The notes under the pieces: model-generated
The model's input: the letters and a program-made list of their open reading frames with translations, nothing else
What the model was told of the DNA's origin: nothing
The model's database searches: none
Translations under genes and position numbers: made by a program
Part shown: positions 1,785-49,713 of the stretch, piece after piece
How the letters are laid out: the number at the start of each line of letters is the position of its first letter
How positions within the stretch are numbered: the first letter of the stretch is position 1
Origin: an uncultured Caldilineaceae bacterium
GTDB lineage: Bacteria > Chloroflexota > Anaerolineae > Caldilineales > Caldilineaceae
Assembly (NCBI GenBank): GCA_958295915.1
Contig: OY282381.1
Span: 1,820,722 to 1,884,721, forward strand
Reading direction: 5' to 3'
Length of the DNA stretch: 64,000 nt

Positions 1785-1900
1785 GTCGCGCCCTACAGTG
1801 GCGCGCATTCCTTGTCGCGCCCTACAGTGGCGCGCATTCCTTGTCGCGCCCTACAGTGGCGCGCATTCCTTGTCGCGCCCCACTGTGGCGCGCAAAACAA
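1785..1900 (+). repeat. Type A repeat, four tandem 29-bp units
   Basis: Four copies begin at 1785, 1814, 1843 and 1872. Each contains CGCGCC, a 7-base loop CTACAGT (CCACTGT-like in the last), and GGCGCG, able to form a 6-bp hairpin, followed by CATTCCTT or, in the last unit, CAAAACAA. The array abuts the start codon at 1783 of the minus-strand membrane gene and so lies in its leader. The rest of 1901-2127 before the cupin gene shows nothing else recognisable. Confidence 0.9.
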
Positions 1901-2940: not shown

Positions 2941-3359
2941 GACCCAAATTCCAAGTAGAAAATATTGAAACGAGAGCTGTGTTGGCGAACGTACCGAGAA
3001 CGACCGCAATAGATGGCTGCAGCGTAAGGCACACTACAGCCCAGGGCTATCCATTGTGGCATACTTACCTTGGACGCGTTTGTGACCTGCCTCTGCGCAA
3101 CGTCCGGACGCGCAAAGAGTGCGCGGAGCCGCAAACTCAGGAAGGCCCGGAATCGTCCCGGTGGCTTGACAGAGATCCAGCGCCGACGACGGTGGGCTAT
3201 TCGGGCTTTCGCATGATGCGCAAAACCTGCGGTGTGCTCAGCCCGAACCCAGGGGTTGCTCCTACGCGCTGAATCTGGCTCAGTTCACACAGGAAGCCTT
3301 ATCAACTTCTTCGCGCCTCTCTCGCGCAGAGGCGCATTCAACAAACCCAAGGGGGTTCC
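2941..3359. other. Intergenic region with one type B-like hairpin
   Basis: I see no convincing gene between the promoter at 2940 and the ATG at 3360. Short frames here have no ribosome site and no recognisable protein. The one structured feature is a hairpin at 3313-3342 (GCGCCTCT ... AGAGGCGC followed by ATTCAA), a reversed variant of the type B repeat. An AAGGGGG ribosome site at about 3348-3354 serves the next gene. Confidence 0.6.
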
Positions 3360-4802
3360 ATGCCAAAGAATCGTTTTGCGCGCCAATTCGGTATTCCCGC
3401 CAATTCAACATCTGATTATGATCTGTGTGATCAGACGCTCATACCTCTCTGTAGGGCGCGACACAGATGGATTCAGCTCTCGATCCTGCTTATGATCGCA
3501 CCGCTCATCCTGATGGCCTGCGCTCCTATAGTGCCAGAAGATCCGCCAGCGCCGGCCGCGGCGCCCGCTGATTCTGACACCAGCTCTACCGATTCTGCCA
3601 CTAGGGACGACGCCAGCGAGGCGGCACAGATGCCCAGCAGCGACGTCGCGCCCAACAGTGACGTCGCGCCCAACAATGGCGTCGCGCCCAACAATGGCGC
3701 GCCATTCAACAATTTGGGCGTGCCCAAATCCGGTGGAGAGCTGATCAACGACGACTCTCCCCCTCCGTTCCACGCCTACGGCTTCACAACGGATTTCTCG
3801 CGGCGCACAGTATCTTGGGACTCAATTCTCTCCGGTGGGCCGCCCAAAGACGGCATTCCGGCGGTGGACAATCCGCAATTCGAGGCTGTCGCGAACGGGG
3901 ACGAATGGTTGCAGGACCCGGAGCCGGTGATCATATTCAGCAGCGGTGACGTGGACCGGGCCTATCCGTTGAGCATTCTCATCTGGCACGAAATCGTCAA
4001 CGACGAAGTGAACGGACAGCCGGTGACCATTACGTTCTGCCCGCTCTGCAATTCCAGCATCGTCTTTGATCGCAACTTTGACGGCCAAATTCTCGATTTT
4101 GGCACCACCGGGCGGCTGCGCCACAGCGACCTGATTATGTACGACCGCCAGACAGAGACCTGGTGGCAGCAGTTCACCGGAGAAGGGATCATCGGCCAGT
4201 ACGCCGGCCAGCAATTGGAGTTTCTCTCCAGCCAGGTGATCTCCTGGGCAGACTTCAAAGCACGCTATCCGGACGGTGATGTGCTGGCGCGGCCGAACAT
4301 GCCGCGGAACTACGGATACAACCCGTATGTGGGCTATGACAGCACAGCCAGACCCTTTCTCTTCCTGGGCAAACCCGACCCGCGCCTGGCGCCGGCCGAA
4401 CGGGTTGTCGGCCTGACGACGGAAACTGAGGCCATCGCCTATCCGTTCACAGTGTTGCAAGAAGTGGGTGTTATCCACGACTCGTTCGGTGGGGCTGAGT
4501 TCACTATCTTCCACAAAGCTGGCATGGCCAGCGCGCTAGATACCACTATCATCAGCAGAGGTAGAGATATCGGAGCAGTGTCTGTCTTCGAACGCCATCT
4601 CGGAGAGCGGCTCCTGACTTTCTCTGCCAACGAGGATGGAACATTCAGCGACGCAGAAACAGGCACTATTTGGAACATTCTGGGCGAGGCCATCGACGGC
4701 CCTCTGGCCGGCGAGAAATTGACCCCTGTTCTGCATTTCGATCACTTCTGGTTTGCCTGGGCCGCCTTCTTCCCAGCAACAGAACTCTACAGTCCGGGGT
4801 AA
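3360..4802 (+). CDS. DUF3179-family lipoprotein with repeat-interrupted signal peptide
   Basis: The 480-residue protein carries the DUF3179 signature: YPLSILIWHEIVNDEVNGQP, FCPLCNSSIVFDR, then WWQQFTGEGI and a YGYNPYVGYD segment. Function is unknown in the family. The CPLC pair is typical. The start at 3360 has an AAGGGGG ribosome site. Residues 1-5 (MPKNR) are followed by about 30 residues encoded by a long-form type A repeat. Only then comes the hydrophobic core and lipobox (IAPLILMAC). Removing the repeat would join MPKNR to WIQLSILLMIAP, a normal lipoprotein signal. Residues about 95-120 (APNSDVAPNNGVAPNNGAP) come from tandem type A half-units. The mature protein is expected at the outer face of the membrane. 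Confidence 0.85.
   Translation: MPKNRFARQFGIPANSTSDYDLCDQTLIPLCRARHRWIQLSILLMIAPLILMACAPIVPEDPPAPAAAPADSDTSSTDSATRDDASEAAQMPSSDVAPNSDVAPNNGVAPNNGAPFNNLGVPKSGGELINDDSPPPFHAYGFTTDFSRRTVSWDSILSGGPPKDGIPAVDNPQFEAVANGDEWLQDPEPVIIFSSGDVDRAYPLSILIWHEIVNDEVNGQPVTITFCPLCNSSIVFDRNFDGQILDFGTTGRLRHSDLIMYDRQTETWWQQFTGEGIIGQYAGQQLEFLSSQVISWADFKARYPDGDVLARPNMPRNYGYNPYVGYDSTARPFLFLGKPDPRLAPAERVVGLTTETEAIAYPFTVLQEVGVIHDSFGGAEFTIFHKAGMASALDTTIISRGRDIGAVSVFERHLGERLLTFSANEDGTFSDAETGTIWNILGEAIDGPLAGEKLTPVLHFDHFWFAWAAFFPATELYSPG
3373..3460 (-). repeat. Type A repeat, long form, inside a signal peptide
   Basis: Two type A half-palindromes (TTTTGCGCGCC and CTGTAGGGCGCGAC) flank an insert that begins AATTCGGTATTCCCGCC and ends GCTCATACCTCT. 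The same layout recurs at 9298-9385 and, with the insert doubled, at 11171-11325. Here it is translated in frame as residues 5-35 of the DUF3179 lipoprotein. Confidence 0.85.
3643..3715 (+). repeat. Type A half-units in coding sequence
   Basis: Three or four short direct units of the kind GTCGCGCCCAACA(G/A)TG, ending in GGCGCGCC, are translated as a VAPN(N/S) repeat in the linker after the lipobox of the DUF3179 protein. Confidence 0.7.
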
Positions 4803-4827
4803 CAGACCAACGCAAAATGACCAAAAC

Positions 4828-4856
4828 TGCCGACCGTTCAAAACGGACGGTCGGCA
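4828..4856 (+). terminator. Strong hairpin after the DUF3179 gene
   Basis: TGCCGACCGT (4828-4837) pairs perfectly with ACGGTCGGCA (4847-4856) around a 9-base loop, 25 bases after the stop codon. No U-run follows, so it could be a terminator of weak type or an mRNA-stabilising end. Confidence 0.5.
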
Positions 4857-4858
4857 GC

Positions 4859-4887
4859 GTCGCGCCCTACAGCGGCGCGCAATACAA
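4859..4887 (+). repeat. Type A repeat, single unit
   Basis: One hairpin unit (CGCGCC-CTACAGC-GGCGCG) followed by CAATACAA lies between two convergent genes, directly after the hairpin at 4828-4856. Confidence 0.85.
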
Positions 4888-4927
4888 CTTCCCGCCCACC
4901 AACGAATGCCTGTCTGGTTACGCCCAT

Positions 4928-5731
4928 TTACGGCTGCCAGCAGCTTCCGGTCAGGGGTAGCTCCTGAATATCCAGGGCCGTGACCCCTGTCCGATCGAGC
5001 ATCACTCGGTAGCGACGCCAGGGCAGATAAAAATACGTATATCCCCGCAGGCAGACCTGCGCCTGGGGCTGATCGATGCCACCGAAAACATCAGGCGCGC
5101 CCAAGGGAATATAGCGGATATCCTCCAGGGCCAGACGATGGACCCACAGACCGGTTACACGGTAGGTAGTTTCGGCGGCTCGGCGGGCATTGACCGAGAG
5201 CCGCAACTCCTCGCCGGTCACATATGCCGCAGGTGGCCTGAAGTAGCGGGGCAGCAGCCCCCAGGGCAGCAGAAAGAACGCCAGAAAAAACAGCAGACGA
5301 AAGCGACAGCCCCTCTCACGCAATTCGACGGCCTCGCTCAGAAGACGCCAAACCACTGTGCTGCTGAACCACATCAGCCACAGCAGCAGCAGGTTCAGGA
5401 CAAAATCGATCATATAAATCTGTACTGTACCGCTGGGCGCCATCGTGGCGAAGGGGAGAGGATAACCGATGCGCCCGAAGCAAAGATCGACGCATCCAGC
5501 GCTGTGAGGCGGCACGACGAACAGATAAAACGCTGCTACATTCAGCAGCATGCTGATCAGGAGTGTGCTGGCAAAGATTGCATACCAACGGCTCGTCTGC
5601 TGAGACCACCAGATCAACAGCAATACGCCCAGAACAACTCCGATGAACGCCAGAATCAGGTCAGTTATGCCGGCGAAATGAATCCAGTCATCTGGCCAGA
5701 CAGCGATGCCTGCCAGGGCCGTCACCGTCAT
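4928..5731 (-). CDS. Polytopic membrane protein of unknown function
   Basis: The ATG at 5731 overlaps the stop of the upstream gene (ATGA), so the longer frame to 5839 is not used. The protein is 267 residues. It has hydrophobic segments near residues 18-40, 46-70, 105-135 and 150-172. A soluble C-terminal part (about 95 residues) contains GYTYFYLPWRRYRVMLD. Residues around 75-95 hold three cysteines (SAGCVDLCFG) in a loop that may be extracytoplasmic. The family is not recognised. It is the last gene of a three-gene leftward operon (9129-4928) of envelope proteins and presumably acts with the two anchored proteins upstream. Confidence 0.65.
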   Translation of the reverse strand: MTVTALAGIAVWPDDWIHFAGITDLILAFIGVVLGVLLLIWWSQQTSRWYAIFASTLLISMLLNVAAFYLFVVPPHSAGCVDLCFGRIGYPLPFATMAPSGTVQIYMIDFVLNLLLLWLMWFSSTVVWRLLSEAVELRERGCRFRLLFFLAFFLLPWGLLPRYFRPPAAYVTGEELRLSVNARRAAETTYRVTGLWVHRLALEDIRYIPLGAPDVFGGIDQPQAQVCLRGYTYFYLPWRRYRVMLDRTGVTALDIQELPLTGSCWQP

Positions 5732-8292
5732 CGCTGGCGAATCCGAACGTTGCCGGCATAGCGCTGCCAACAGAGAAAGATGCGATCGAAATGCTCTGGC
5801 AGTTGACCGATCATCTGTGGCTGCCCAGCGCCACTCCACTCTTCCAGTCGCGGATTGTTGTTTTGCGCGCCACTGTGGAGCGCGACCCCGTTGCCCGACC
5901 GTACAGTGAGCAATACTGATCCATCCGCGCAGGCGGCATAATCCCCGATCACAGTACCTGGTGGATACAAATACGACGAAAGGTTCGGAACAGTTTGCCG
6001 CAAATCCACCTCGGTAATGCCGAATATATCCAGCGAAAAGACGCCTTGAGGAGAGAAGCGACTGCGGGCAAGCACGAGCCGGTCATCATCCCGCCAAGCC
6101 ACCTTGGGAGCGAAAAACTCGAATCGGGTTTCGGTCTGCGCGCGCAAGCGGCCACGGGCTCCGCTTCCGTTCGCGGGCAGGTCCTGCACCCACAGTTGAT
6201 TGGACGGACGCACAAAACCGGCGGTCAGGCTCGGGTGCTGCGGATCGAATGCCAGATGGGCGAGACGGCTGTCATCAGGGCTGAGCTGAAACGGCCCGCG
6301 ATAGATGTCTGCGCGCGCCAGCCGGCTCGATTCGAGCTCTCCGTTTATGTCCAGGTCGATGCGATACAGGCCGGTAAACTGACGCCCTGCGTCGATATCA
6401 GCGGTATCAATGATAAATGAACGGACGTCTCCGGCGCCGGACGCCACCGCGATCAACGATGGTTCAATGGCGCGGTTGGCTCTGCCTCCCAACAGGGATG
6501 TAGAAGCCTGCACCCGCAGAACGATCTGCTCGGCCCGACTGTCGTAGTGCCATAGCCGCCATTGGGCCAGCCCCACCTGCGACATTTCAATCCACCAGAG
6601 ATCGCCGCGTTCATCCGCGGCAATCCCCCGCACACTCTGGAATGGATGTGTCTGGATCGCCAGACCTTTGCCGTCTCCCCGCACATACAGGAACCCATTT
6701 CGGTCCGCCGGTGCGTTGGCATTGGGGATAACGAATCCATTTGCGCCGCTACGGACGGCCAGCACAGTCTGACCGGCCTCTCTGATGGCTGCCACCGTGC
6801 CATCTTGCTGCAAGAGAAAGACGCCGGACTCCCCCCGCTTCCCCAGAAGCGCGACGGCCTGCCCGCTCTGCCAGGCCGCGCCAAAGATGGGCACATCCGT
6901 GCGCGTAACCCGCTGGAACGAAGGCGGGGCGATGACGCGAACGCTGGAGACAGTGACTTGATTTGCGCCAGGTCGCGCCCGGCAGTGGCGCGCAACACAA
7001 CTTTTTGCCTGTTGACCCGCCACATAGACCCGGGCGCCCGGCCAGAGAAAATCGGAGCGGGCAGGCAGCCATTCACCGCGGGACGCGCCAAAGATGCCGC
7101 TCCACATCGACACCTGCTCCTCGAGCGGCTCGATATTCAGCAGCAGAACCTCACCGTTGTCCGTGCGAACGAAGATCGGTTCCATAGGATTAGCCGGGAC
7201 AACATCGCCGAGAACGGTAGCGACAAACTCACCGGCTTGGGGTGGGGCGACCTGCGCAGGGTGTAGGACCACAGCAGACGATTCCGTCGGCAAATCGTGA
7301 AGAGCCGGCAACGGCGCTACCTGTGTGGTTATCGCCGTTGCCGTGGGCATGTCTGTCACCGTTGCCGTGGGCGTGCTCGCCGCCGTTGCCGCAACCGGTG
7401 TAGATGTCTGCCTGATCTGAATGCCTGGCGGGCGCGAGCCGAACGGGCGAATGCGAATGCCCTCATCTGTGTAACGGTGGAGTGTCGTCAAATCGCCATC
7501 GACTTCTATCAGTTCGATAGCCATCCAACCTTCCTTCCCATCCAATTCCGTCCTCGGATCCGTCACTTTCAACAGGGCCCATGCGCCGTTGGCCGTAATG
7601 CCGCCTAGCGTGACACGGATACCCTCGCCCAAACGCGCGAATACATCATCCTGTGTGGATGGGCCAGCCCGCAGCCGGGCGGGGAACAAATTGACGCGCC
7701 CCGCAACATTGTCGGGAGCCCCAATTTCAATATCCGAGGGAAAGACGCTGATCGGCACATACACGTTCGTCGCTGTCGCTGAAACGGTGGGCGTTGCCGA
7801 CAGGCTGGCTGTCGCCGTTGCCGTAGACGTGAACGTGGGTGTATCTGTTGCCGTGGAGGTGGAGGTGAACGTGGGCGTAGACGTGGGTGTGACCGTCACC
7901 GTTGCCGTGGGGAGTTCAGTCGGAAAGGTTGTATTGCGCGCTACTGTATTGCGCGCTACTGTATTGCGCGCCACTGTAGGGCGCGCCACTTCTGTATGGG
8001 TCGCTATCAGCGTTGCAGTTGCGCTGGCAGTCGGTTTATCCGTTGGCCGTAGCGGCGTGCCTGTGGGAAGGCGAACGTCCGCCTGACTGGCGCCCGTCTG
8101 CTCTGCTGGCAGCGCCGCAGCGGTAGTCTGTACGCTTGCGCCCGTCAGCAAGTCGGCCGGATCTCTGTCGCCTAGGGAGAGAAATAGAGACACAAAGATG
8201 ACGAAAACAACGCCGACCGCCAGTAGATTTACCTGTATCGACCTGCGGGCAGCAGCCAGAATTTTCTGCAAACGCAAGAACCTATCGTTCAT
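5728..8292 (-). CDS. Membrane-anchored SH3 / beta-propeller protein
   Basis: An 854-residue protein with an AGGA ribosome site before the ATG. One membrane segment lies at about residues 21-42 (VNLLAVGVVFVIFVSLFLSL). A Thr/Pro/Ala-rich linker follows at about 50-175. A bacterial SH3-like domain lies at about 185-260 (FPARLRAGPSTQDDVFARLG, GWMAIELIEVDG), then a second TP-rich linker. A large C-terminal part reads like a WD40/YVTN-type propeller (GIAADERGDLWWIEM, SPDDSRLAHLAFDP, VAWRDDDRLVLARS). The role is probably extracytoplasmic sensing or wall binding, but this is inference. Type A repeats are translated in frame at three places (residues about 102-121, 432-440 and 803-812), in both orientations. 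It is the middle gene of the 9129-4928 operon. Confidence 0.75.
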   Translation of the reverse strand: MNDRFLRLQKILAAARRSIQVNLLAVGVVFVIFVSLFLSLGDRDPADLLTGASVQTTAAALPAEQTGASQADVRLPTGTPLRPTDKPTASATATLIATHTEVARPTVARNTVARNTVARNTTFPTELPTATVTVTPTSTPTFTSTSTATDTPTFTSTATATASLSATPTVSATATNVYVPISVFPSDIEIGAPDNVAGRVNLFPARLRAGPSTQDDVFARLGEGIRVTLGGITANGAWALLKVTDPRTELDGKEGWMAIELIEVDGDLTTLHRYTDEGIRIRPFGSRPPGIQIRQTSTPVAATAASTPTATVTDMPTATAITTQVAPLPALHDLPTESSAVVLHPAQVAPPQAGEFVATVLGDVVPANPMEPIFVRTDNGEVLLLNIEPLEEQVSMWSGIFGASRGEWLPARSDFLWPGARVYVAGQQAKSCVARHCRARPGANQVTVSSVRVIAPPSFQRVTRTDVPIFGAAWQSGQAVALLGKRGESGVFLLQQDGTVAAIREAGQTVLAVRSGANGFVIPNANAPADRNGFLYVRGDGKGLAIQTHPFQSVRGIAADERGDLWWIEMSQVGLAQWRLWHYDSRAEQIVLRVQASTSLLGGRANRAIEPSLIAVASGAGDVRSFIIDTADIDAGRQFTGLYRIDLDINGELESSRLARADIYRGPFQLSPDDSRLAHLAFDPQHPSLTAGFVRPSNQLWVQDLPANGSGARGRLRAQTETRFEFFAPKVAWRDDDRLVLARSRFSPQGVFSLDIFGITEVDLRQTVPNLSSYLYPPGTVIGDYAACADGSVLLTVRSGNGVALHSGAQNNNPRLEEWSGAGQPQMIGQLPEHFDRIFLCWQRYAGNVRIRQR
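5857..5885 (-). repeat. Type A repeat in coding sequence
   Basis: One unit is translated on the minus strand as VALHSGAQNNN near the C-terminus of the 854-residue protein. Confidence 0.85.
6972..7000 (+). repeat. Type A repeat in coding sequence
   Basis: One unit (loop CGGCAGT), oriented opposite to the gene, is translated as CVARHCRARPGA at residues about 432-440 of the 854-residue protein, between two segments that read as regular beta structure. Confidence 0.85.
7929..7988 (-). repeat. Type A half-unit array in coding sequence
   Basis: Three 15-base units (TTGCGCGCTACTGTA) followed by GGGCGCGCC are translated as RPTVARNTVARNTVARNT in the first Thr/Pro-rich linker of the 854-residue protein. 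Confidence 0.85.
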
Positions 8293-8352
8293 CGTTTTCC
8301 TACACAGAGGTGTTCCAGCGCGCTTCCGTGACCGGACTGTATCCTGCTGTTG

Positions 8353-9129
8353 TCAATTCTGAATCGTCACCGTCACTCGACAGGGTTCCGGATAGTTGCC
8401 GCTGGTGTCCACCACCACTAGCTGAATTGTGTACGTGCCGTCTGCCCATGCGCTGCTGTTCAGGTTACCGAGTAGCCCGCCGACCACTGGGCTTTCAGCG
8501 CCATCGAAATAACTGAAGATCTGATTGGCGCCGCTGGCTGCCCACTCCAGCTTATAGAAGTCGAACTGATCGTGCTGGGCCGTACCGACAATCGACACAA
8601 CTCCGCTTACGATCGCGCCGTTTCCAGGCGAAAGTATGGCCGCGCGCCCGTCCGGGCACAGGGCCGGGGAGACAGCAGGGGGCTGCGGCGTGGGGGTCGG
8701 CACAAGCTCTGGCTGCCTAGCTTGCTGTCGAGTATCCGGCAAAGGTGTAGGTAAACTGCGGGTCGGGGTCGCTGTTGGCTGTTCCGGCGTAAATGTCGGC
8801 GTCGGGATCAGAGCCGATAGGGACTCAGTGGCGGGTGTCAAGGAGACGCTTGGCGCTGCGAGAAGCGTCGATGACTCCGCCACGTTCATTGCCGCGCGCA
8901 GAGTTGTGCTGGCAAAATACGTAACGCCCATCACCACAAGCATCAATAGCGCAGAGAGAAAAATGCTATACAGATCGCCGATGGCTTTGTCTCGTTCCAA
9001 GGAAAAAACCGCCTGGCGCCGCTCGGCGCGCGCCTGCCACGTGCGATACAGTTGAAATAGCGCCAGCAGACCACACGCTGCATAAATATAGGGCGCAATG
9101 TTGGCAATGGCCTCGACGAGAAAATCCAT
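8353..9129 (-). CDS. Membrane-anchored protein with Ig-like C-terminal domain
   Basis: A 258-residue protein. Hydrophobic segments lie at about residues 8-28 and 54-78, with a basic cytoplasmic loop between them (RTWQARAERRQ). A Pro/Thr-rich linker covers about 100-150 (PTPTFTPEQPTATPTRSLPT). The last 100 residues look like an all-beta, Ig-like or bacterial Big-type fold (AILSPGNGAIVSGVVSIVGT ... WADGTYTIQLVVVDTSGNYP). A Cys near residue 155 and one near residue 249 could form a disulphide. It is the first gene of the 9129-4928 operon. The next start codon is 61 bases downstream. A type A unit sits upstream at 9174-9195. It is a cell-surface protein of unknown role. Confidence 0.65.
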   Translation of the reverse strand: MDFLVEAIANIAPYIYAACGLLALFQLYRTWQARAERRQAVFSLERDKAIGDLYSIFLSALLMLVVMGVTYFASTTLRAAMNVAESSTLLAAPSVSLTPATESLSALIPTPTFTPEQPTATPTRSLPTPLPDTRQQARQPELVPTPTPQPPAVSPALCPDGRAAILSPGNGAIVSGVVSIVGTAQHDQFDFYKLEWAASGANQIFSYFDGAESPVVGGLLGNLNSSAWADGTYTIQLVVVDTSGNYPEPCRVTVTIQN

Positions 9130-9173
9130 TGACAGATTCTGAACAGGAAGCCGATTGGCGACAGTATCGTTTG

Positions 9174-9195
9174 ACGCGCCACTGTAGGGCGCGAC
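9174..9195 (-). repeat. Type A repeat, single unit
   Basis: CGCGCC-ACTGTAG-GGCGCG hairpin in the leader of the leftward envelope operon. Confidence 0.85.
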
Positions 9196-9297
9196 GCGGA
9201 TGAAATGAGCCGTTCACAAGTAGTCTACCGTAGCGACGCAGTTCCGCCAAAAAGGGCCGATTTCTACAGAAGCGGTAGCGTCACAGGAAAATCGTCG

Positions 9298-9405
9298 TTT
9301 GCGCGCCAATTCGGTATTCCCGCCAATTCAATATCTGATTATGATTTGTGCGATCAGGCGCTCATACCTCACTGTGGAGCGCTTCTATGTCGCGCTCCAC
9401 AGATG
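9298..9405 (-). repeat. Type A repeat, long form plus trailing half-unit
   Basis: TTTGCGCGCC, the insert (AATTCGGTATTCCCGCC ... GCTCATACCTC), then ACTGTGGAGCGC, followed by another half-unit GTCGCGCTCCACAG. The insert differs from the copy at 3373 by only a few bases. Confidence 0.9.
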
Positions 9406-9407
9406 CT

Positions 9408-9436
9408 TTGCTGTTTCCCTACGAATCGGCTATTAT
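9408..9436 (+). promoter_or_regulatory. Promoter for gamma-glutamyltransferase gene
   Basis: TTGCTG (9408-9413), 17-base spacer, TATTAT (9431-9436). The -35 box begins just after the end of the long-form type A repeat. Confidence 0.55.
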
Positions 9437-9485
9437 AAAAGCCCATTCTAGTTGACCGCACCGAAATGAACGAAAAGATCGGCCC

Positions 9486-11159
9486 ATGAACTACGATTTC
9501 GTCTTCCGCTCCCGTCGCAGCAACCTGTTGGCGCGCAATGGACTGGTCGCCACCAGCCAGCCACTGGCTGCCCAGGCTGGCTTGACTATTCTGCAGGCGG
9601 GAGGCAACGCAGCCGACGCCGCGATTGCCACAGCCGCAGCATTGAACGTCGTCGAACCGACCTCCACCGGCATCGGCGGCGACTGTTTTGCCCTCTACTG
9701 GGATGCGAAAACCAAACGAGTGACTGCGCTCAACGGTTCCGGACGCTCCGCAGCCGCCGCCTCCATCGACGAACTGCGCCGACTCGGCTATACGCGCATG
9801 CCCCAATATACCGGACACAGCGTCAGCATCCCCGGTACCGTAGCCGGTTGGAGCGATCTGCTGGAAAGACACGGCACGATGACACTGGCCGAAGTGCTGG
9901 GGCCGGCTATTCGCCTGGCTGAAGAGGGCTATCCAGTCACCGAATGGATTGGGCAAAGCTGGGCCGCGCAGACAGCAAAGCTTCTGCGCGCCCCGGATTG
10001 GATCAGCAGCGATCTGGACAACGGGCCGGAGCAGCCTAGCGGCAATGAACTGCTCATCGACGGCCGCGCGCCGCGCGCCGGGCAAGTGATGCGCCTTCCT
10101 ACTTTGGGCCAAACGCTGCGGGCCATCGCCGCTGACGGCAAGAAAGCGATTTACACAGGCGAGTTTGCGCGCAAGTTGAGCGAGCATGTGCAGCGGTATG
10201 GCGGCTGGATCACGCCAAAAGACATGGCAGCCCATACAAGCTCCTGGCACGATCCAATTACCGCCGATTTCGGTGACGTTCGCCTATACGAATGTCCGCC
10301 CAACGGTCAGGGGCTGGCGGCAATTATCGCCGCCAATCTGGCCGCCGGCTTCGATCTGGCGCAGATGTCCAGCGTCGATCGCCTGCACACACTGGTAGAG
10401 TGTATGCGCATCGGCTATGCAGAGGCCCGGCAGTGGGTTTGCGACACCCATCTCGTCTCGATTCCTCTGGACGCACTCACCAGCAGGGTCTATGCCGATC
10501 AACGACGGCAGGAGATCCACCGGCAACGGGCTGCTACGTCTATATCGTATGGCTATCCAATGGCCGGCTCGGATACGGTCTATCTGACCACCGCGGACGG
10601 TCAAGGAAACGCGTGCAGTTTCATTAACAGCCTCTATCAAGGGGCCGGTAGTGGATTGGTTGTGCCCGGCAGCGGCGTCAGCCTCCAAAACCGGGCGGCT
10701 CTCTTCGTCCTCGCCCCCGACCATCCCAACTGCCTCGCCCCCAACAAGCGCCCCTATCACACAATCATTCCCGCCATGACCACCCGCGGCGGCGCGTTGC
10801 ACGCCAGCTTTGGTGTGATGGGCGGCTATATGCAACCCCAGGGACATCTGCAGATGTTGGTGAATATGGCCAGCCTGGATATAAACCCCCAACAGGCGCT
10901 GGATATGCCCCGCTGGGCGCTAAGTGGCCCGCATACAGAGCTGGGCGCAGATGAACCCGGCGGCCAGGTGCTAATCGAAGAAGGCTGGGAGTACGACGCC
11001 CTGGCGGAGATGGCCCGCCGCGGACACCGGCTGATCCCGGTCAACGGGTCAGGCAGGGCCGGGTTCGGCGGTGGACAGATTATTATGCGGGACCCGGAAA
11101 CCGGTGTTCTGATTGGGGGCAGCGATCCGCGCAAGGATGGCTGTGCTGTCGGCTGGTAA
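9486..11159 (+). CDS. Gamma-glutamyltransferase family protein
   Basis: A 557-residue Ntn-hydrolase of the GGT family. The N-terminal part shows GLVATSQPLAAQAGLTILQAGGNAADAAIA and TGIGGDCFALY, typical of the family. The likely catalytic Thr is residue 364 (GSDTVYLTTADGQGN), at the usual autocleavage point, followed by FINSLYQGAGSGLVVPGSG, which replaces the lid loop. The enzyme would cleave itself into large and small subunits and transfer or hydrolyse gamma-glutamyl groups. No signal peptide is visible, so it appears cytoplasmic, like the short bacterial GGT-like enzymes (cephalosporin acylase-type) and not the periplasmic form. It is a single gene behind its own promoter. Confidence 0.88.
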   Translation: MNYDFVFRSRRSNLLARNGLVATSQPLAAQAGLTILQAGGNAADAAIATAAALNVVEPTSTGIGGDCFALYWDAKTKRVTALNGSGRSAAAASIDELRRLGYTRMPQYTGHSVSIPGTVAGWSDLLERHGTMTLAEVLGPAIRLAEEGYPVTEWIGQSWAAQTAKLLRAPDWISSDLDNGPEQPSGNELLIDGRAPRAGQVMRLPTLGQTLRAIAADGKKAIYTGEFARKLSEHVQRYGGWITPKDMAAHTSSWHDPITADFGDVRLYECPPNGQGLAAIIAANLAAGFDLAQMSSVDRLHTLVECMRIGYAEARQWVCDTHLVSIPLDALTSRVYADQRRQEIHRQRAATSISYGYPMAGSDTVYLTTADGQGNACSFINSLYQGAGSGLVVPGSGVSLQNRAALFVLAPDHPNCLAPNKRPYHTIIPAMTTRGGALHASFGVMGGYMQPQGHLQMLVNMASLDINPQQALDMPRWALSGPHTELGADEPGGQVLIEEGWEYDALAEMARRGHRLIPVNGSGRAGFGGGQIIMRDPETGVLIGGSDPRKDGCAVGW

Positions 11160-11170
11160 AGAGGCAACCA

Positions 11171-11325
11171 TGTCGCGTCCCATAGTGAGGTATGAGCGCC
11201 TGATCACACGAATCATGATCAAATATTGAATTGGCGGGAATACCGAATTGAGGTATGAGCGCCTGATCACACGAATCATAATCAAATGTTGAATTGGCGG
11301 GAATACCGAATTGCGCGCAAACGAC
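11171..11325 (+). repeat. Type A repeat, long form with insert in two tandem copies
   Basis: GTCGCGTCCCATAGT, then two direct copies of the roughly 67-bp insert (each starting GAGGTATGAGCGCC and ending GGCGGGAATACCGAATT), then GCGCGCAAACGACG. The two inserts differ at only a few bases. This shows that the insert is a unit that can be present 0, 1 or 2 times between the palindrome halves. Confidence 0.92.
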
Positions 11326-15459: not shown

Positions 15460-15715
15460 CCAGCGCGCAAAACAACGTCGCGCTCCATAGCAGCGCGCAA
15501 AACAATATCGCGCTCCATAGCAGCGCGCAAAATAACGTCGCGCTCCGCAGCGCGCAAAACAATGTCGCGCTCCACAGCAGCGCGCAAAACAATGTCGCGC
15601 TCCATAGCAGCGCGCAAAACAATGTCGCGCTCCATAGCAGCGCGCAAAATAACGTCGCGCTCCACAGTAGCGCGCAAAAAACGTCGCGCTCCACAGTAGC
15701 GCGCAAAACAACCTT
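15460..15715. repeat. Type A tandem array, about nine 27-30-bp units
   Basis: Units of the form GCGCGCAAAACAATGTCGCG + CTCCATAGCA repeat about nine times, mostly at 30-bp spacing with one 27-bp and some shorter units. There are no unique spacers, so this is not a CRISPR array. Because 30 is a multiple of three, several frames stay open on both strands across the array. It lies upstream of modA. Confidence 0.9.
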
Positions 15716-17604: not shown

Positions 17605-18555
17605 ATGGATGAAAACGTGCTGATTGAGGCAGTGCCGAACTTTTCCGAGGGCAGACGCACGGATGTCATCGACGAGTTGACAGCAGCGATTCAGGCGCCC
17701 GAGGTGCAGCTGCTCCATCGCGCCAGCGACTGGGACCATAACCGCACAGTTCTGACTATCGCCGGCCCGCCGCAGGCTGTGCTGAGGGGGCTATTCAAAG
17801 CGATCGAAGTGGCCATCGTCCGCATTGACCTGGGTCGGCAGCAGGGGGCGCATCCACGATTGGGCGCGGCGGATGTGGTTCCACTGGTGCCGATTCGCAA
17901 TATTTCGCTGGACGAATGCGTTGTCCTTGCTCGCCAATTGGGTCGTCAAATCGGGAATGAGTTGGATCTGCCCGTTTACCTATATGCAGCAGCCGCTACC
18001 AGACCGGAGCGGCGCAATCTGGCCGATATCCGCCGGGGAGAGTACGAAGCGCTAAGACAAGAGATCCATCGGCCGGCGCGTCTGCCTGATTTCGGCCCGG
18101 CCAAGATCGGCCCGGCGGGGGCGGTAATCGTCGGAGCCCGATCCTTTCTCATCGCCTTCAATGTCTTCTTGCGCACGGCCGATGTAGCGGTGGCCAAAGC
18201 TATCGCCCGCCAAATTCGGGAGAGCAGTGGCGGTCTGCCGGCGGTCAAAGCCCTAGGCCTCCTCGTAGATGGACAGGCCCAGGTGAGTATGAATCTGGTC
18301 GATTTTCTCACGACACCACCTCACGCGGTGGTGGAGGCCATTCAGCGGGAAGCCATCCACCTGAACACTGAAATCGACCGCAGTGAACTGATTGGCCTCA
18401 TTCCCCAGGATGCGGTATTGGCGGCTGCGGCCAGCGCTCTGCTTCTGCCGGATCTGACCACCGACCGAATCCTGGAGGTCGCCTTGTGTCAACAGACCGG
18501 CTCGCTCTGTCGCGCGCCACAGTGGCGCGCAAAACGATGCTTTGGCGAAAGATGA
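17605..18555 (+). CDS. ftcD: Glutamate formimidoyltransferase
   Basis: A 316-residue enzyme of the formiminotransferase family, without the cyclodeaminase domain. It transfers a formimino group between N-formimino-glutamate and tetrahydrofolate in histidine breakdown. Seen: IEAVPNFSEGRR at the N-terminus, SDWDHNRTVLT, a GAHPRLGAADVVPLVPIRN block, and the VKALGLLVDGQAQVSMNLVD block. The ATG at 17605 starts the conserved N-terminus. The longer frame to 17548 overlaps modB. The last 15 residues (LCRAPQWRAKRCFGER) come from a type A repeat running into the stop, so the native C-terminus has been replaced or lengthened. Confidence 0.88.
   Translation: MDENVLIEAVPNFSEGRRTDVIDELTAAIQAPEVQLLHRASDWDHNRTVLTIAGPPQAVLRGLFKAIEVAIVRIDLGRQQGAHPRLGAADVVPLVPIRNISLDECVVLARQLGRQIGNELDLPVYLYAAAATRPERRNLADIRRGEYEALRQEIHRPARLPDFGPAKIGPAGAVIVGARSFLIAFNVFLRTADVAVAKAIARQIRESSGGLPAVKALGLLVDGQAQVSMNLVDFLTTPPHAVVEAIQREAIHLNTEIDRSELIGLIPQDAVLAAAASALLLPDLTTDRILEVALCQQTGSLCRAPQWRAKRCFGER
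18509..18537 (+). repeat. Type A repeat forming the ftcD C-terminus
   Basis: CGCGCGCCACAGTGGCGCGC plus AAAACGA, translated as CRAPQWRAKR just before the ftcD stop. Confidence 0.85.
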
Positions 18556-21383: not shown

Positions 21384-22415
21384 ATGACAGACCTTCAACT
21401 AAGCCAGCGTCGCAAACAGTTGCTGCGCATCGTCATCCAGGAATACATAGACACTGTCCAGCCTGTGGGTAGCCAATCGATCGCGCAGAAATACGATTTG
21501 GGGGTCAGTGCAGCGACCATTCGCAATGATCTGGCTGCGCTGGAAAAAGCCGGCCTACTGACCCATCCCCACACCAGCGCCGGACGTATCCCCACCGATG
21601 GAGGCTACCGCTATTTTGTGGCTCATCTTATGGCCCACACAGATCTTCCCTCCCATGAGCGGCGTATGATCCGCCACCAGTTCCATCAGACCCGCCAGGA
21701 GATCGACCAGTGGCTGCGTCTGAGCACAGCCGTGTTGGCCAAAGCCTCTACCGGCGCGGCGCTGGCAACCTCCCCCCGCTCCATGTCCAGACGGGGGGTT
21801 AAGCATCTGGAGTTGATTGGCCTTCAGGATACTGTTGTACTGCTGGTGCTGGTGCTGGCCACAGGCACAGTCAAACAACGATTGATCTCGCTGGAACAGC
21901 CGATTTTCCAAGAAGAACTGAGCCGCGCCAGCAACCACCTCAACGTCGAAATCTCCGGCGCGAACATTGCGGATCTGCCGGCGAAACTGAAGAGATTCAC
22001 CGGTTTCACTCTGGAAGTGGGCGAGCTGGTGCTGAACACATTGCGTCAGTCGGAGGAGCAGATCGGTGAACGTGTTTATCGACACGGGCTGGCCCAGGTA
22101 TTGGAAGCGCCTGAGTTTGCCGACAGGCCAAAGGTGCGCCGGATCGTGCAGGTATTCGAACAGCGCGCGCTGCTGCAAGAGATCTACGACGATATTGTGC
22201 AACTGAGCGACGTGCAGGTAATGATTGCCGGCGAGGGGCGCTTCAGCGATATGCAGGACATCAGTTTGGTCTTGAGCCGCTATGGGGCGCCGGATCGGAT
22301 CAGTGGACTGTTAGGCGTAGTCGGCCCGATGCGAATGCCCTACGGACGCACAATCGGGGCCGTGCGCTATGTAGCAACGCTCCTGAACGAACTGATGCAT
22401 CGGATCTATGGCTAG
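21384..22415 (+). CDS. hrcA: Heat-inducible transcription repressor HrcA
   Basis: A 343-residue HrcA. The N-terminal winged helix reads RRKQLLRIVIQEYIDTVQPV, then GSQSIAQKYDLGVSAATIRNDLAALEKAGLL and HTSAGRIPTDGGYRYFV, which is diagnostic. The C-terminal half has VLVLATGTVKQRLI and a closing GVVGPMRMPYGRTIGAVRYV. In other bacteria HrcA binds CIRCE (inverted TTAGCACTC) at heat-shock operons. I see no CIRCE element upstream of this gene or of grpE. It lies just before grpE, but dnaK and dnaJ do not follow within the window. Confidence 0.93.
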   Translation: MTDLQLSQRRKQLLRIVIQEYIDTVQPVGSQSIAQKYDLGVSAATIRNDLAALEKAGLLTHPHTSAGRIPTDGGYRYFVAHLMAHTDLPSHERRMIRHQFHQTRQEIDQWLRLSTAVLAKASTGAALATSPRSMSRRGVKHLELIGLQDTVVLLVLVLATGTVKQRLISLEQPIFQEELSRASNHLNVEISGANIADLPAKLKRFTGFTLEVGELVLNTLRQSEEQIGERVYRHGLAQVLEAPEFADRPKVRRIVQVFEQRALLQEIYDDIVQLSDVQVMIAGEGRFSDMQDISLVLSRYGAPDRISGLLGVVGPMRMPYGRTIGAVRYVATLLNELMHRIYG

Positions 22416-22452
22416 GGGCAACCCTTGTGTTCGGGCTGAACGCGCCGCAGAT

Positions 22453-22480
22453 GTCGCGCCCTACAGCGGCGCGCAAACAA
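22453..22480 (+). repeat. Type A repeat, single unit
   Basis: TCGCGCCCTACAGCGGCGCGC between hrcA and grpE, preceded at 22411-22432 by a decayed type D stem (GGGGCAACCCTTGTG). Confidence 0.85.
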
Positions 22481-22562
22481 CCTTCGCACGATGCGCGAAG
22501 CCCGAATATTGCCCAGGGTGGGCACAAAACGCCAACCGTACTTTGAGATAACAGGACCCCTT

Positions 22563-31317: not shown

Positions 31318-32559
31318 TCACGCCACCGACACCAATATCTGCGCGGCTTTGGGTACTCCACCCAGGGAGGCGAACTCCTCCTGCAAGCTGGCGGCGTTCT
31401 GGCGAGCGGGGGCGTTGCCCGGCAGCATCTTTTGCAGAGCTGCAGTCACAAGAGAGACCGTCATCTGCTTGGGCGGGATATGATATCCGACACCGCTGCG
31501 CACAACCCCTTTGGCCTGCCGCCCCTGGTCTGCAGCCTTAGGCACGACAATCTGCGGAATCCCATGGGTGACCAGGGCGTGGGTCGTGCCGGCGCCGCCA
31601 TGATGGATCGCCCCCGCGGTGTAAGGCAACAATTCCGCAAACCGGACCCGCTCTACCAGTACCGTAGGCTGCGGCAGTCTGCTTCGCAGAGCTGCCACCT
31701 CCTCAGCGCTGAAACCCTTGCCGATCGCCAAAATCGGCACTCCCCCCACCTGCGCCACCGCATGGGCCGCGATAATGAAAAAATTAATATCCTGGGTGAA
31801 AGAAGTCCCGAGGGTGATGAAGATCCATGGGCGGTCCATCGGAAGTTGGTCGAGCCAAGGGGATGCCCGTGGCTGGGCCGGCGGCGCACTACCGCCGACC
31901 ATGCGTGTCTGGGGCAATAGCGGCGTCCCAGCATACCAACGGGGACTCCAATAGGTCAGATGCAGATAGGGCGAACGTAGCGCAGCCGAACCGTCCAGCG
32001 CCCAATTGATGCCAGTAGCGCCAAAATCGGCCAGTAGCGCGCGCACTCGTTCCTGAGCCAACTCACCTACAAAGTCAGCGTCGCGCCCTACAGTGGCGCG
32101 CAAAACATCGCCTTCCGACAACTTCGCTTGGACCGCCGGCCAGCCGGCGATAGCGAACGGCACGTCCAACACTTCTGCAGCAATGCCAGCAGCGGCAGTA
32201 AACATCTCGCTGACGACCACATGCGGGCGGAAGCGCTTGCCTACGTCGATAAGCTCCAGAGTCGCCGCCCGCACTCGTTTCACATCCAACCACTGATCCA
32301 GGGAGCGGATCATGCGCAGTCGCTGAAAATCCTCCTGCGAAGCCGCGTTCAGATCTGCCAGGGGTGGCGGGGGCCAGCGCCAGCCGGTCCCCTGCAGGAT
32401 ATGGCGGCGGACGCCCTGCGCCGCCAGTTCGCTCTGCAGTTCATGACCGGTAGCCCACATGACATCATGACCTTCTCGCGTCAGTTTCGCAGCAGTGGGC
32501 AGATAACCACCCCAGTCCAGATGGCCCGGTAGTTGAGCGGATACACATAGAAAACGCAT
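31318..32559 (-). CDS. Family 1 (UGT/MGT-type) glycosyltransferase
   Basis: A 413-residue GT-B enzyme of the macrolide/erythromycin CIII-like group. The N-terminal domain opens MRFLCVSAQLPGHLDWGGYL. The C-terminal domain shows WIFITLGTSF, then AGAIHHGGAGTTHALVTHGIPQIVVP and DQ, the nucleotide-sugar-binding signature. It would glycosylate a lipid or small molecule. Residues about 150-160 (VLRATVGRD) are a type A repeat translated in frame inside the N-terminal domain. No clear ribosome site; a further type A unit lies just upstream at 32568-32593. Confidence 0.87.
   Translation of the reverse strand: MRFLCVSAQLPGHLDWGGYLPTAAKLTREGHDVMWATGHELQSELAAQGVRRHILQGTGWRWPPPPLADLNAASQEDFQRLRMIRSLDQWLDVKRVRAATLELIDVGKRFRPHVVVSEMFTAAAGIAAEVLDVPFAIAGWPAVQAKLSEGDVLRATVGRDADFVGELAQERVRALLADFGATGINWALDGSAALRSPYLHLTYWSPRWYAGTPLLPQTRMVGGSAPPAQPRASPWLDQLPMDRPWIFITLGTSFTQDINFFIIAAHAVAQVGGVPILAIGKGFSAEEVAALRSRLPQPTVLVERVRFAELLPYTAGAIHHGGAGTTHALVTHGIPQIVVPKAADQGRQAKGVVRSGVGYHIPPKQMTVSLVTAALQKMLPGNAPARQNAASLQEEFASLGGVPKAAQILVSVA
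32080..32107 (+). repeat. Type A repeat in coding sequence (GT1)
   Basis: TCGCGCCCTACAGTGGCGCG plus CAAAAC, read on the minus strand as VLRATVGRD in the glycosyltransferase. Confidence 0.88.
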
Positions 32560-40324: not shown

Positions 40325-40867
40325 TTTTCCTATCCTTCTCCATTTGACGATATCAAGCCACCTTTCAGCCCCGCGCTGCATAAGATTCTTACGCAGAGTT
40401 CAGCCGCCCCTACGGCCTTTGCTTTCTTGGGATACGGGTAACTGAAAAGCGTTCACGCAGCTTGGCGCGTGACTCTTCTCATATTCACGTAACTTTATCA
40501 TTGGGACGAAAGCACACGAGCAGCGATGTATGCGGGGCAGATCAAATGTGGGGCGCCAAGAGGAATTGATGGTGGATAGACAAGTTACTCACACATCTAC
40601 CTCTCGCTTTCCTATGCCCTTCCCTCTCTCCATCCCAAACTGATGTACAGCCAATGTGAGCCCACTATGCCGGTACATTACAGGGAGCGGACAATCGGCT
40701 TCTGTTCATTGTAAGATCCCTATCCATCACATTGCAAAGCAGACAGCGCAATAAGACTATGCAATAAGACTATATAGTATAGCCGGTTTTGAGTAGATAC
40801 ACGAATAACTGTCTTGCGTATTTGAAGCCTGGTCGCGCCCTACAGTGGCGCGCAACACAACCCTTTC
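40325..40867. other. Long gap between ylxR and infB
   Basis: These 543 bases separate two genes that usually abut. No gene is supported. The gap holds a type A unit (40832-40860), a perfect 13-bp direct repeat (GCAATAAGACTAT at 40748-40760 and 40761-40773), and on the minus strand a TATACT -10-like box (40776-40781) without a good -35. It could carry a secondary promoter for infB or a long structured leader. Confidence 0.45.
40832..40860 (+). repeat. Type A repeat, single unit
   Basis: TCGCGCCCTACAGTGGCGCG followed by CAACACAA, directly after the ylxR stop in transcription order. Confidence 0.88.
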
Positions 40868-43376: not shown

Positions 43377-43524
43377 GTCGCGCCCTACAGTGGCGTGCAA
43401 TACAACAACTCCAGTCGCGCCCCACAGTGGCGCGCAATACAACAACTCCAGTCGCGCCCCACAGTGGCGTGCAATACAACAACTCCAGTCGCGCCCCACA
43501 GTGGCGCGCAATACAACAACTCCA
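43377..43524 (+). repeat. Type A tandem array, four 37-bp units
   Basis: Units start at 43377, 43414, 43451 and 43488. Each has CGCGCC, CTACAGT or CCACAGT, GGCG(C/T)GC, then AATACAACAACTCCA. The same 37-bp unit occurs singly at 60576-60612. The array lies between the PstS-like gene and the terminator. Confidence 0.92.
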
Positions 43525-43573: not shown

Positions 43574-44446
43574 TTATCGGATTGGCGCATGATAGCGCGC
43601 GACAATGCTTTGCCCCTCCGCGCCGAGCGCGAAATCAACAATATCCTGTATGGCCTGATCGCCGTGCTGACGGATGAGCAGATATAGGGGCCGTACCAAC
43701 GGGTAGCGGTGATCGACCAAATCCGCGCCATATGGCATCCGCCCCTCGATAGAAATCGCTTTAACCCTTTTCATCGCCGCGTCCATACCAGGAGCAGAGG
43801 ATTCTCTATTGTGAGAAAGATACGCAGCCGTGACATAGCCGATGGCGGCACGATGAGCGGCCACATACTCTACAACATCGCCGCTGGTAGGCATGACAAC
43901 CGCGGTCAATGCAACCCGCTCCTCGCCCATGATACGATCCTCGAAAAACGCACGCGTCGCGCTGCCGTCCTCGCGACTCACCAGCAGCGCATCATCCGCG
44001 CGGCCGCCAATATCCTGCCAGGTCAGCGCGCTGCCTCTGTACAGATCCCGAATCTGCGCCAGTGTCAGCGCGTCCACCGAGTTTTCGCTGTGAACGATCA
44101 GAGCAATCCCATCCAGTCCGATCGGTATGCGGACGAGCCCAGAAGGCACTTCGTCGTCCGCATAGACTGCGGTGCTGGCTGCAATGTCAACCCGTCCGGA
44201 CGCCACCCACTGTTCGCCCAATCGGCTGCCGCCGCCGCGTAGCCTGAAGAGCATATTGGGTTTGCGCTCACTGTAGGCGGCTGTTAATTCTGTAAGAACC
44301 GGCTGCATTTCTGTCGAACCGGCGATCGTCACAGTGACGGGTGTGGGTGTGGTTGCTGTTGGCTGCGCGCAACCAGCCAGAAGGAAGGCCACGAGCGTCA
44401 GCCATATGAATAGGACAGAGAAGAGACCAAGTTGGAAATTCCGCAA
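43574..44446 (-). CDS. PstS-like phosphate-binding lipoprotein
   Basis: A 290-residue periplasmic binding protein of the PBP_like_2/PstS group. The signal peptide ends in the lipobox LAGC at about residue 25. The mature part opens TVTIAGSTEMQPVLTELTAA, then RGGGSRLGEQWVASGRVDIAAS, LTLAQIRDLYRGSALTWQDI, SREDGSATRAFFED, and a closing VRPLYLLIRQHGDQAIQDIVDF, all typical. It would bind phosphate or a related anion. No permease or ATPase genes are adjacent. The start is a TTG at 44444-44446 that lies at the end of a type A insert; GGCGGG of that repeat could act as its ribosome site. Confidence 0.82.
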   Translation of the reverse strand: MRNFQLGLFSVLFIWLTLVAFLLAGCAQPTATTPTPVTVTIAGSTEMQPVLTELTAAYSERKPNMLFRLRGGGSRLGEQWVASGRVDIAASTAVYADDEVPSGLVRIPIGLDGIALIVHSENSVDALTLAQIRDLYRGSALTWQDIGGRADDALLVSREDGSATRAFFEDRIMGEERVALTAVVMPTSGDVVEYVAAHRAAIGYVTAAYLSHNRESSAPGMDAAMKRVKAISIEGRMPYGADLVDHRYPLVRPLYLLIRQHGDQAIQDIVDFALGAEGQSIVARYHAPIR

Positions 44447-44510
44447 TTCGGTATTCCCGCCAGTTTAATATCTGATCAGGGGTTGGTATGATTGCGCTCA
44501 TACCTCAGCC
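44440..44510 (-). repeat. Type A long-form insert without flanking palindromes
   Basis: CAATTCGGTATTCCCGCC ... ATCTGATCAG ... GCGCTCATACCTCA, diverged in the middle. It lies between uppP and the PstS-like gene and supplies the TTG start of the latter. Confidence 0.75.
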
Positions 44511-46565: not shown

Positions 46566-46610
46566 ATCACCCTCGAGACGAGTTAGTGACAAAAAAGCAG
46601 GAAAAATCTT

Positions 46611-46640
46611 CAATGCGCCTCTGCTCGAAAGAGACGTTAA
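46611..46640 (+). repeat. Type B repeat, decayed
   Basis: AATGCGCCTCTGCTCGAAAG then AGACGTTAACG, so the 3' arm is partly lost. It lies upstream of tgt. Confidence 0.65.
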
Positions 46641-46711
46641 CGCTATCGCATTCTTCCTGCTTTGTCAAAGCAATTGCGCTTCGGTAGCGCGCAGCGAACG
46701 ATGATGTTCAC

Positions 46712-47848
46712 CTAGGTCGCCGCGGCCCTGAGCGGTTTGATTTCCCGCTCCTCGTTATCGGCTCCGTTCAAGGCTGTATCCACAGTCTCTTCTTTCGGCG
46801 CAAGAGGCTGTTCAATGCGCCTCTGCTCGAAAGAAGCGCTATTGATGGGCAATCCAGCCTGCTTCCGGATCTTGCTGTCGATCTGCGCGGCGATATCTGT
46901 TTTTTCGCTGAGAAAGGCCTTGGCGTTTTCCCGGCCCTGACCCAAACGCATATCTCCAAAGCGATAGAAAGCGCCTCGTTTTTCAATGATGTCGAACTCG
47001 ACGCCCAGATCCAAGAGGTCGCCCTGGCTGCTGACACCTTCGTTGTACATAATGTCGAACTCCGCCACCTTGAAGGGCGCAGCCACTTTGTTCTTGCGCA
47101 CTGTCACACGCGTGCGGTTGCCGATCACATTACTGCCCTGCTTGATCGCCTGAATGCGGCGCACATCCAGCCGCACACTCGCATAGAACTTCAGCGCCAG
47201 ACCCCCAGAGGTCGTCTCCGGATTGCCAAACATCACCCCGATTTTCTGGCGTAACTGATTGGTGAAGATCATGCTCGTGTCCGTCGTCTTCACCGCTCCC
47301 ACCAGCTTGCGCAACGCCTGACTCATCAGCCGCGCCTGCAAGCCCATATGACTGTCTCCCATCTCGCCTTCGATCTCAGCACGCGGCACCAGCGCTGCCA
47401 CGCTATCCACCACCACTACATCCATCGTTCCAGAACGCACCAGGGCCTCTGCTATCTCCAGCGCCTGTTCGCCTGTGTCCGGCTGGGATACGTACAGACC
47501 ATCCACATCCACCCCGATCGTGCGCGCATAGGCGGAATCAAGCGCATGTTCCACATCCACAAAGCTGCACACGCCTCCCATCCGCTGCGATTCAGCGATG
47601 ATATGCAGACACAGTGTTGTTTTGCCCGAACTTTCCGGCCCATACACCTCGGCGATGCGCCCGCGCGGTACCCCTCCCACCCCCAGAGCGATGTCCAGGC
47701 TCAGACTCCCCGTGGGGATGGCGCCCACGTCCAACCGGATCGCCTCCCCCAACTTCATGATGATCCCATCCCCATAACGGCGATTGAGATTGGCAATCGT
47801 CATTTCCAACGCTTTGGCCGCTCCACTGTCAGATGATTTCTTAGTCAT
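46712..47848 (-). CDS. recA: Recombinase RecA
   Basis: A 378-residue RecA. Seen: [47 protein letters not shown] (Walker A), [20 protein letters not shown] (Walker B), [19 protein letters not shown] (L2/DNA loop), [24 protein letters not shown] precedes the ATG. A perfect-consensus promoter with an SOS box lies upstream. Residues about 336-345 ([12 protein letters not shown]) in the tail after the core are encoded by a type B repeat, so the C-terminal regulatory tail differs from other RecA proteins. Confidence 0.96.
46813..46840 (+). repeat. Type B repeat inside recA
   Basis: AATGCGCCTCTGCTCGAAAG then AAGCGC, translated on the minus strand as [10 protein letters not shown] in the RecA C-terminal tail. 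Confidence 0.85.
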
Positions 47849-47917
47849 AAATTTTGCTCCTTTGCGGTCTGGTTTCGGTATACTGTGACTGGAATCCCGA
47901 AGAGGATCGATTCAGTC

Positions 47918-47946
47918 ATTATAGAACGCATGTTCGTAAATGTCAA
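47918..47946 (-). promoter_or_regulatory. recA promoter, perfect consensus
   Basis: On the minus strand TTGACA (47941-47946), 17 bases, TATAAT (47918-47923). The start of transcription would be near 47911, about 63 bases before the ATG. Confidence 0.88.
47924..47935. promoter_or_regulatory. SOS box (LexA operator) of recA
   Basis: GAACGCATGTTC (GAAC-N4-GTTC), followed by G, fits the Gram-positive-type LexA site. It lies wholly inside the spacer of the recA promoter, so LexA binding would block polymerase. Confidence 0.85.
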
Positions 47947-47948
47947 AA

Positions 47949-48289
47949 CGGCGCGGTTGCTAAAAACCAAAAACTGGCAACTAAAAACATCTTTCAGAAA
48001 CTGCCCGGAAACCTTCCGACTGTTCGCAAAGCGGGGCGCGCCCTCTGGTCCGCCCATCATCGACCCGATTAGCAGGTCTATGTGAGCGACAGCCGCCAAC
48101 TTGTGCAGAGTATGGAAATCGCGCCTACATGAATGTTTCTTTAGCAGTGCAATTCTTGTCTTTTCGCGGTATTACCGGCTATAATCGGTACGCGATCTTC
48201 AATCCCCTCATGTGGACTACAAGACTCATCCGCTTCAGGCGTGTATAAAGAAGCTCCATCCTACTTTTAAGGCTGACGCTGCAACTCTC
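47949..48289. other. Region between the recA promoter and the next gene
   Basis: An A-rich type C-like stutter (CTAAAAACCAAAAACTGGCAA) occurs at about 47960-47985. The rest up to 48289 holds no supported gene; a GTG-started extension of the next gene to 48212 is possible. Confidence 0.4.
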
Positions 48290-48661: not shown

Positions 48662-48736
48662 TCATCGTCGATTTGGTCCTGCAACCAGAGATCGGCAGGG
48701 CCGAAATCGCGCGCTGTAGAGGACTGGTCGAATAGG

Positions 48737-48767
48737 GTTGAATGCGCCTCTGCTCGAAAGAGGCGCG
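48737..48767 (+). repeat. Type B repeat, intergenic
   Basis: TTGAAT followed by GCGCCTC, TGCTCGAAA, GAGGCGC (perfect stem), 24 bases before the end of the convergent EamA gene. Confidence 0.9.
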
Positions 48768-48790
48768 GGTCACCATCAAACAACAACTCA

Positions 48791-49705: not shown

Positions 49706-49713
49706 GATATCCT

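Follow-up and report, generated by a model that had tools for sequence, protein, structure and literature searches.

The DNA studied here, called the window below, is a 64,000-nucleotide stretch at positions 1820722-1884721 of one 5.06-Mb contig from a Caldilineaceae bacterium, whose nearest relatives are Caldilineaceae metagenome-assembled genomes (Chloroflexota). In and between its genes, which include those for a DUF3179 lipoprotein, a formiminotransferase, a glycosyltransferase, MazG, an SH3-domain protein and a permease, lie many copies of a 30-bp hairpin (A), of a sister hairpin (C) and of a second small family (S/D) that is found alone or between the two halves of A. The only Rfam match in the window is a tRNA. 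We have compared this genome with 16 other species of the same genus (17 species counting the host), seven of which are syntenic across the first 21 kb of the window, while the complete relative G015 is syntenic across much of a 464-kb stretch around it; this stretch and 60 further 20-kb samples make up 1.66 Mb of sampled genome.

Small repeat families confined to one species

A consensus built from 149 isolated copies defines A as a 30-bp unit, GTTGTATT-GCGCGCC-ACTGTAG-GGCGCG-AC, preceded by an A-rich stretch. The inserted unit starts with a GTTG tag, followed by N4, a stem (GCGCGCC/GGCGCG) enclosing a 7-nt loop, and a final AC, and its DNA hairpin has a z of -2.5. With one mismatch at most, the window has 25 occurrences of the core CGCGCC-N7-GGCGCG, against 1.4 expected and a maximum of 6 in 100 shuffles, and a 24-mer scan allowing up to six mismatches recovers 35 units there, with a single match to the reversed sequence over the 464 kb. 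The repeat therefore lies far above chance, and the original prediction, which had counted about 40 type A units with array periods of 29, 30 and 37 bp, was fair in number and right in the periods.

When the genome was scanned with a 20-bp core at up to two mismatches, 486 A cores were found, compared with 0-3 in each of the 16 same-genus species and none for the reversed pattern. Hairpin C (GTTGAATGCGCCTCTGCTCGAAAGAGGCGCGAT, 33 bp) follows the same plan of GTTG, hairpin and 7-nt loop and is present in 324 copies here and 0-3 in the relatives, where some copies have stems with compensated changes. A and C are thus tiny hairpins that have multiplied in one species, in intergenic DNA and in genes. 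Carriage by phages or plasmids was also checked, and neither viral contigs nor plasmids contained any A, S or C core.

This distribution bears on whether the repeats are functional sequences under selection, such as terminators, nucleoid or replication sites, or uptake sequences. Hairpins near gene ends could indeed terminate transcription, and A is locally enriched, at 2.8 per 10 kb in the 464-kb stretch versus about 1.1 in the 60 other samples. However, the repeats are present in only 1 of the 17 species, they are inserted in genes on either strand, and the orientation of A follows GC skew in no clear pattern across the 61 sampled stretches, so that a functional origin is very improbable. 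The last result also led us to reject a strand bias tied to replication.

The segment that accompanies A forms a family of its own, S/D, of which the 16 relatives have no copy. Its members have common ends, AATTCGG...CTCA, and occur as a D form of 48 bp with the outer stem GGGCT/AGCCC and an S form of 62-64 bp with the outer stem GGTAT/ATACC, the two stems differing by matched changes on both arms. The majority of the catalogued copies stand alone (three catalogue rows, near 164-169 kb of the stretch, represent paralogous genes and do not belong to S/D), about 12 touch A halves, three D copies lie in C, and several are in tandem; beside the standalone copies, C is favoured to the left and A to the right. 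S/D is a second tiny family, independent of A and able to insert cleanly alone. The sequence CCTCAATTCGG would be the junction of a hypothetical S circle.

Empty sites in relatives and the reading frame

At window position 5863 the unit is absent from all seven relatives, which read CGCGGA^ACCC or similar, and the window is longer by exactly 30 bp, in frame within a protein gene. A gain of exactly 30 bp was observed at 8 in-gene sites in the 464 kb; the remaining in-gene gains are 18, 27, 36, about 51 (degenerate) and 93 bp, plus one in-frame array, and the in-frame A or composite loci number 14 in total. In genes A is read in either orientation, with predicted peptides such as SRATVERD and APHSGAQN. 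The resolved in-gene copies are all in frame, presumably because selection removed the others. The mobility proposed in the original prediction is therefore supported by these empty orthologous sites. No flanking direct repeat, the target-site duplication characteristic of a miniature inverted-repeat transposable element (MITE) of a DDE transposon, was seen at window 5863 or at position 144072 of the 464-kb stretch.

A sequence resembling A also occurs in a putative genus-wide small RNA (genome 3767456-3767530; no Rfam match), which has a promoter-like TTGCTATACT, three hairpins and a T-run and lies upstream of an acyl-CoA dehydrogenase gene. In 16 of 16 congeners (L236-L252) its first hairpin is GGCGCG[C/T]C-GC[T/A]GTNG-GGCG[C/T]G[C/T]C or a near match; in the host genome and four family outgroups (L280-L283) the small RNA has no A-like first hairpin, and the dehydrogenase gene is nearby in three of these four outgroups. 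Because the GGT tree places the host genome as sister to seven sampled congeners, this hairpin may go back to an A-like insertion in the congeners' ancestor. The acyl-CoA dehydrogenase tree is weak on that placement, and the likeness to A may also be due to chance.

Nesting at one loop bond and growth of arrays

S sits exactly between the A halves at 3373-3460 and 9298-9385, and in two tandem copies at 11171-11325, as had been described; the lone segments also proved correct (44445 and 63095), and a fourth composite, at about 54025-54122 on the minus strand, had been overlooked. In A, the S/D junction invariably reads GCGCGC(C)^ACTG or nearly so, in one orientation, and is used by several S subtypes and by D. 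D occupies the matching place in the C loop, and the bond common to the A and C loops, GCGCC^[A/T]CTG, is strongly favoured by S/D. Several D copies in turn hold A inside. In a short and weakly resolved tree of 37 S copies, the nested state changes 5-8 times, and a single origin appears in 0 of 200 bootstrap trees; amplification of one composite was rejected on this tree. Since several S subtypes share one bond and one orientation, and given the S tree, the composites appear to be two (sometimes three) tiny elements that became nested through repeated insertion at a specific site.

The original prediction had instead taken A and the segment to be one element whose internal cassette can be counted. 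A modular mobile element of this kind, in which A halves enclose 0, 1 or 2 cassette copies, would be formally like the pneumococcal BOX/boxB, and it fits the finding of composites with 0, 1 and 2 copies, identical junctions and a single orientation. But S/D copies lie mostly outside A, S inserts alone as a clean 62-bp unit at 44445, D also nests in C, and A nests inside D. The standalone majority, an outcome that the prediction itself had named as fatal to it, largely refutes the one-element part of that idea, which we regard as improbable, and only its mobility part stands.

About nine tandem paralogous gene copies (genome 1803579-1822600; window 1-1900) carry 0-4 A units at one flank site, and the target supplies the spacer between the units; arrays thus grow by being duplicated where they stand. 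They are head-to-tail, and their periods vary by locus (15 and 28-37 bp). Such growth, the 15-bp half-unit arrays, the absence of target duplication and the failure to find a transposase would all fit a reading without transposition, in which the copies arise when replication forks switch template or when palindromes undergo gene conversion with one another, and the arrays by slippage. On the other hand, hundreds of dispersed copies, a constant 30-bp unit starting from GTTG and nesting at a fixed bond argue for defined ends. Around standalone S/D and around C, the flanking sequences show no more self-complementarity than shuffled pairs do, and the slight excess at A flanks comes from D[A] nests and arrays; this leaves hairpin-loop targeting in general unsupported and also goes against an origin without transposition, which is unlikely. 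In the sample, those A left halves that lack a right half revealed no autonomous element (A halves around a gene).

Some further observations concern neighbouring repeats. E is another palindromic family (GTAGGGGCAACC...GGTTGCCCC, with GTAG at the end) that often holds D; at genome 1763733 an E[D] composite of about 69 bp lies within a repeat, seven similar copies of which lack the composite. At genome 1085558 a D copy is broken by another element, about 105 bp long and flanked by a direct repeat of 7 bp (AAACCTG), which is probably an ordinary MITE. Short tandem arrays with 14- and 18-bp periods are present in the relative OY282376 (L047:5321-5474 and 20253-20414) and were not seen at the corresponding places in the host genome. 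At window 51565-53781, a tandem repeat of about 0.9 kb occurs in three diverged copies within an SH3-domain protein gene. The features of the window are collected in Table 1.

Table 1. Repeat elements in the window; X[Y] denotes Y lying within X.
Feature	Position	Strand	Remarks
Four-unit A array	1785..1896	-	Period 29 bp; spacer AAGGA from target site
D alone	3198..3247	+	50 bp, S/D superfamily; flanks GGGC / TTGCTCC
C hairpin	3313..3342	-	Sister family of A
Composite A[S]	3373..3460	+	93-bp (30 + 63) in-frame insert after codon 4, DUF3179 lipoprotein gene 3360-4802
Degenerate A-derived insert	3641..3712	-	About 51 bp, in-frame, linker of DUF3179 lipoprotein
A unit, intergenic	4859..4882	-	
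A unit	5857..5886	+	Clean 30-bp in-frame, gene 5728-8292 (-); seven relatives empty
A unit	6972..7001	-	In-frame, +36 bp, gene 5728-8292
A array	7934..7987	+	15-bp half-unit period, in-frame, gene 5728-8292
A unit, intergenic	9172..9195	+	
Composite A[S]	9298..9385	+	
Composite A[S-S]	11171..11325	-	Two tandem S copies
A array	15460..15706	-	Period 30 bp
A unit	18509..18532	-	3' end of formiminotransferase gene
Triple nest	22409..22520	-	Outer GGGCAA...TTGCCC palindrome (E) > D > A
A unit	32080..32103	-	In-frame, glycosyltransferase gene
A unit	40832..40855	-	Equals 24-mer consensus
Four-unit A array	43377..43511	-	Period 37 bp, locus-specific spacer
S alone	44445..44506	+	Clean insertion of 62 bp at G^CA, by comparison with G015
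Six C hairpins	46608..50311	+	At 46608, 46810, 48616, 48737, 49674, 50282
C hairpin	50282	+	Last of the six above; in-frame (+36), MazG gene
A unit	53550..53573	+	30-bp in-frame insert, SH3-domain protein gene
C hairpin	53806..53835	+	
Composite A[S]	~54025..54122	-	Different S subtype
A doublet	54140..54178	-	15-bp half-unit period
A unit	60576..60599	-	
S alone	63095..63157	+	Directly after permease gene

Possible mode of movement and known systems

We consider it likely that A is a tiny non-autonomous selfish 30-bp hairpin, C its sister, and S/D a second family, nested at one bond. A and C would land in intergenic DNA and genes, leaving no target duplication. S/D would enter 3' of C, before A and, above all, at the bond common to the A/C loops, a preference that would give rise to the seemingly modular composites, and A arrays would then lengthen by tandem duplication in place. 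The unit itself would move as a folded single strand, transposed in the manner of repetitive extragenic palindromic (REP) and IS200-type elements by an HUH-type enzyme acting in trans, which may now be lost or too divergent for detection. The start tag, the hairpin, the lack of target duplication and the strict unit length resemble those of folded-strand REPs, and the anatomy is compatible with IS200/IS605-type single-strand transposition, for which no enzyme was found.

Several results weigh against this reading. The search for a Y1 or REP-associated tyrosine transposase (RAYT), suggested in the original prediction, gave 0 matches to PF01797 in the host genome and the 16 same-genus species, with positive controls giving matches, and thus the enzymatic step is without a candidate. 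GTTG in place of GTAG abolished cleavage by one S. maltophilia RAYT that was tested (PMC8266576); under the guide rule of that paper, a tag reading GTTG would go with cleavage at CA. Six more loci with flanks matching one stop-to-stop open reading frame are out of frame; several have stop codons nearby, so they may lie outside coding sequence. The composites could also partly be co-amplified units. Among other enzymes, neither IS110 nor reverse transcriptase was found in the host genome; Y2_Tnp gave 0 matches there and also 0 in the control genomes. With PF01797, IS110 and reverse transcriptase not found, the enzyme may be lost, divergent or of another kind. More tentatively, the families might represent two-tier minimal mobile DNA, in which GTTG-tagged hairpins of 30-33 bp move by an undescribed (non-Y1, non-reverse transcriptase, non-IS110) mechanism and a 48-63 bp loop-bond parasite uses them as a safe landing pad.

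The closest known systems are the GTAG- and CGTC-tagged REPs, the Rickettsia palindromic elements and pneumococcal BOX. GTAG-tagged REPs with RAYT are hairpins of 20-40 bp in hundreds of copies, with a tetranucleotide tag at one end (PMC3733652, PMC8266576); they are mostly intergenic, with some in genes, and in Thermomicrobium roseum (Chloroflexota) they occur inside other palindromes (PMC3733652). A and C are likewise short tagged hairpins in more than 100 copies, both intergenic and in genes, but A has a GTTG tag, a 7-nt loop and head-to-tail arrays (rare in REPs), RAYT was not found here, and a second element targets the A loop. The CGTC-tagged repeats, including RPE-4 and RPE-6 of Rickettsia, have an A-T stem base and loops of 4-5 nt (PMC3733652). 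These too are short hairpins, often in frame in genes and without an associated transposase, whereas A has a G-C stem, a 7-nt loop and no CGTC tag. Because A and C fail both the GTAG and the CGTC definitions, we have not filed them as members of either; A is a selfish, REP-like hairpin that bears a GTTG tag, comes without the usual enzyme and has been colonised by another tiny element.

Rickettsia palindromic elements are described as selfish palindromes of 105-146 bp fused in frame into many genes (Ogata 2000, via PMC2229807). As far as that description goes, they share with A and C the in-frame insertion (the 14 A/composite loci, and C in MazG) and a mover enzyme that was not identified, and they differ in size from the 30 bp of A and 33 bp of C. 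The BOX elements of Streptococcus pneumoniae have end modules with a countable boxB between them, and repeats there are inserted into one another (PMC3049150). The A halves around 0, 1 or 2 internal copies and the mutual insertion are similar, but the inner S/D is mainly a standalone element, whereas the account of BOX presents boxB as its intervening module. The short palindromes of Volvox organelles, located in organelle, non-coding DNA, are often inserted into one another (PMC2670323), and a fixed insertion bond such as that of A/S/D is not among the features described in that account. A is also like another set of repeats by description only, being short, dispersed and mobile: SDR5 of Nostoc, with dispersed copies of 21-27 nt, was reportedly found by Elhai in 2008 to be mobile.

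At 30 bp, and with clean empty sites in close relatives, A is near the lower size limit of mobile DNA, and it adds 10-residue blocks in frame to proteins. One tiny element can also serve as the landing site of another. With a burst in one species, 16 empty sister species and nesting at a fixed bond, the question of REP- or RPE-like movement becomes directly testable.

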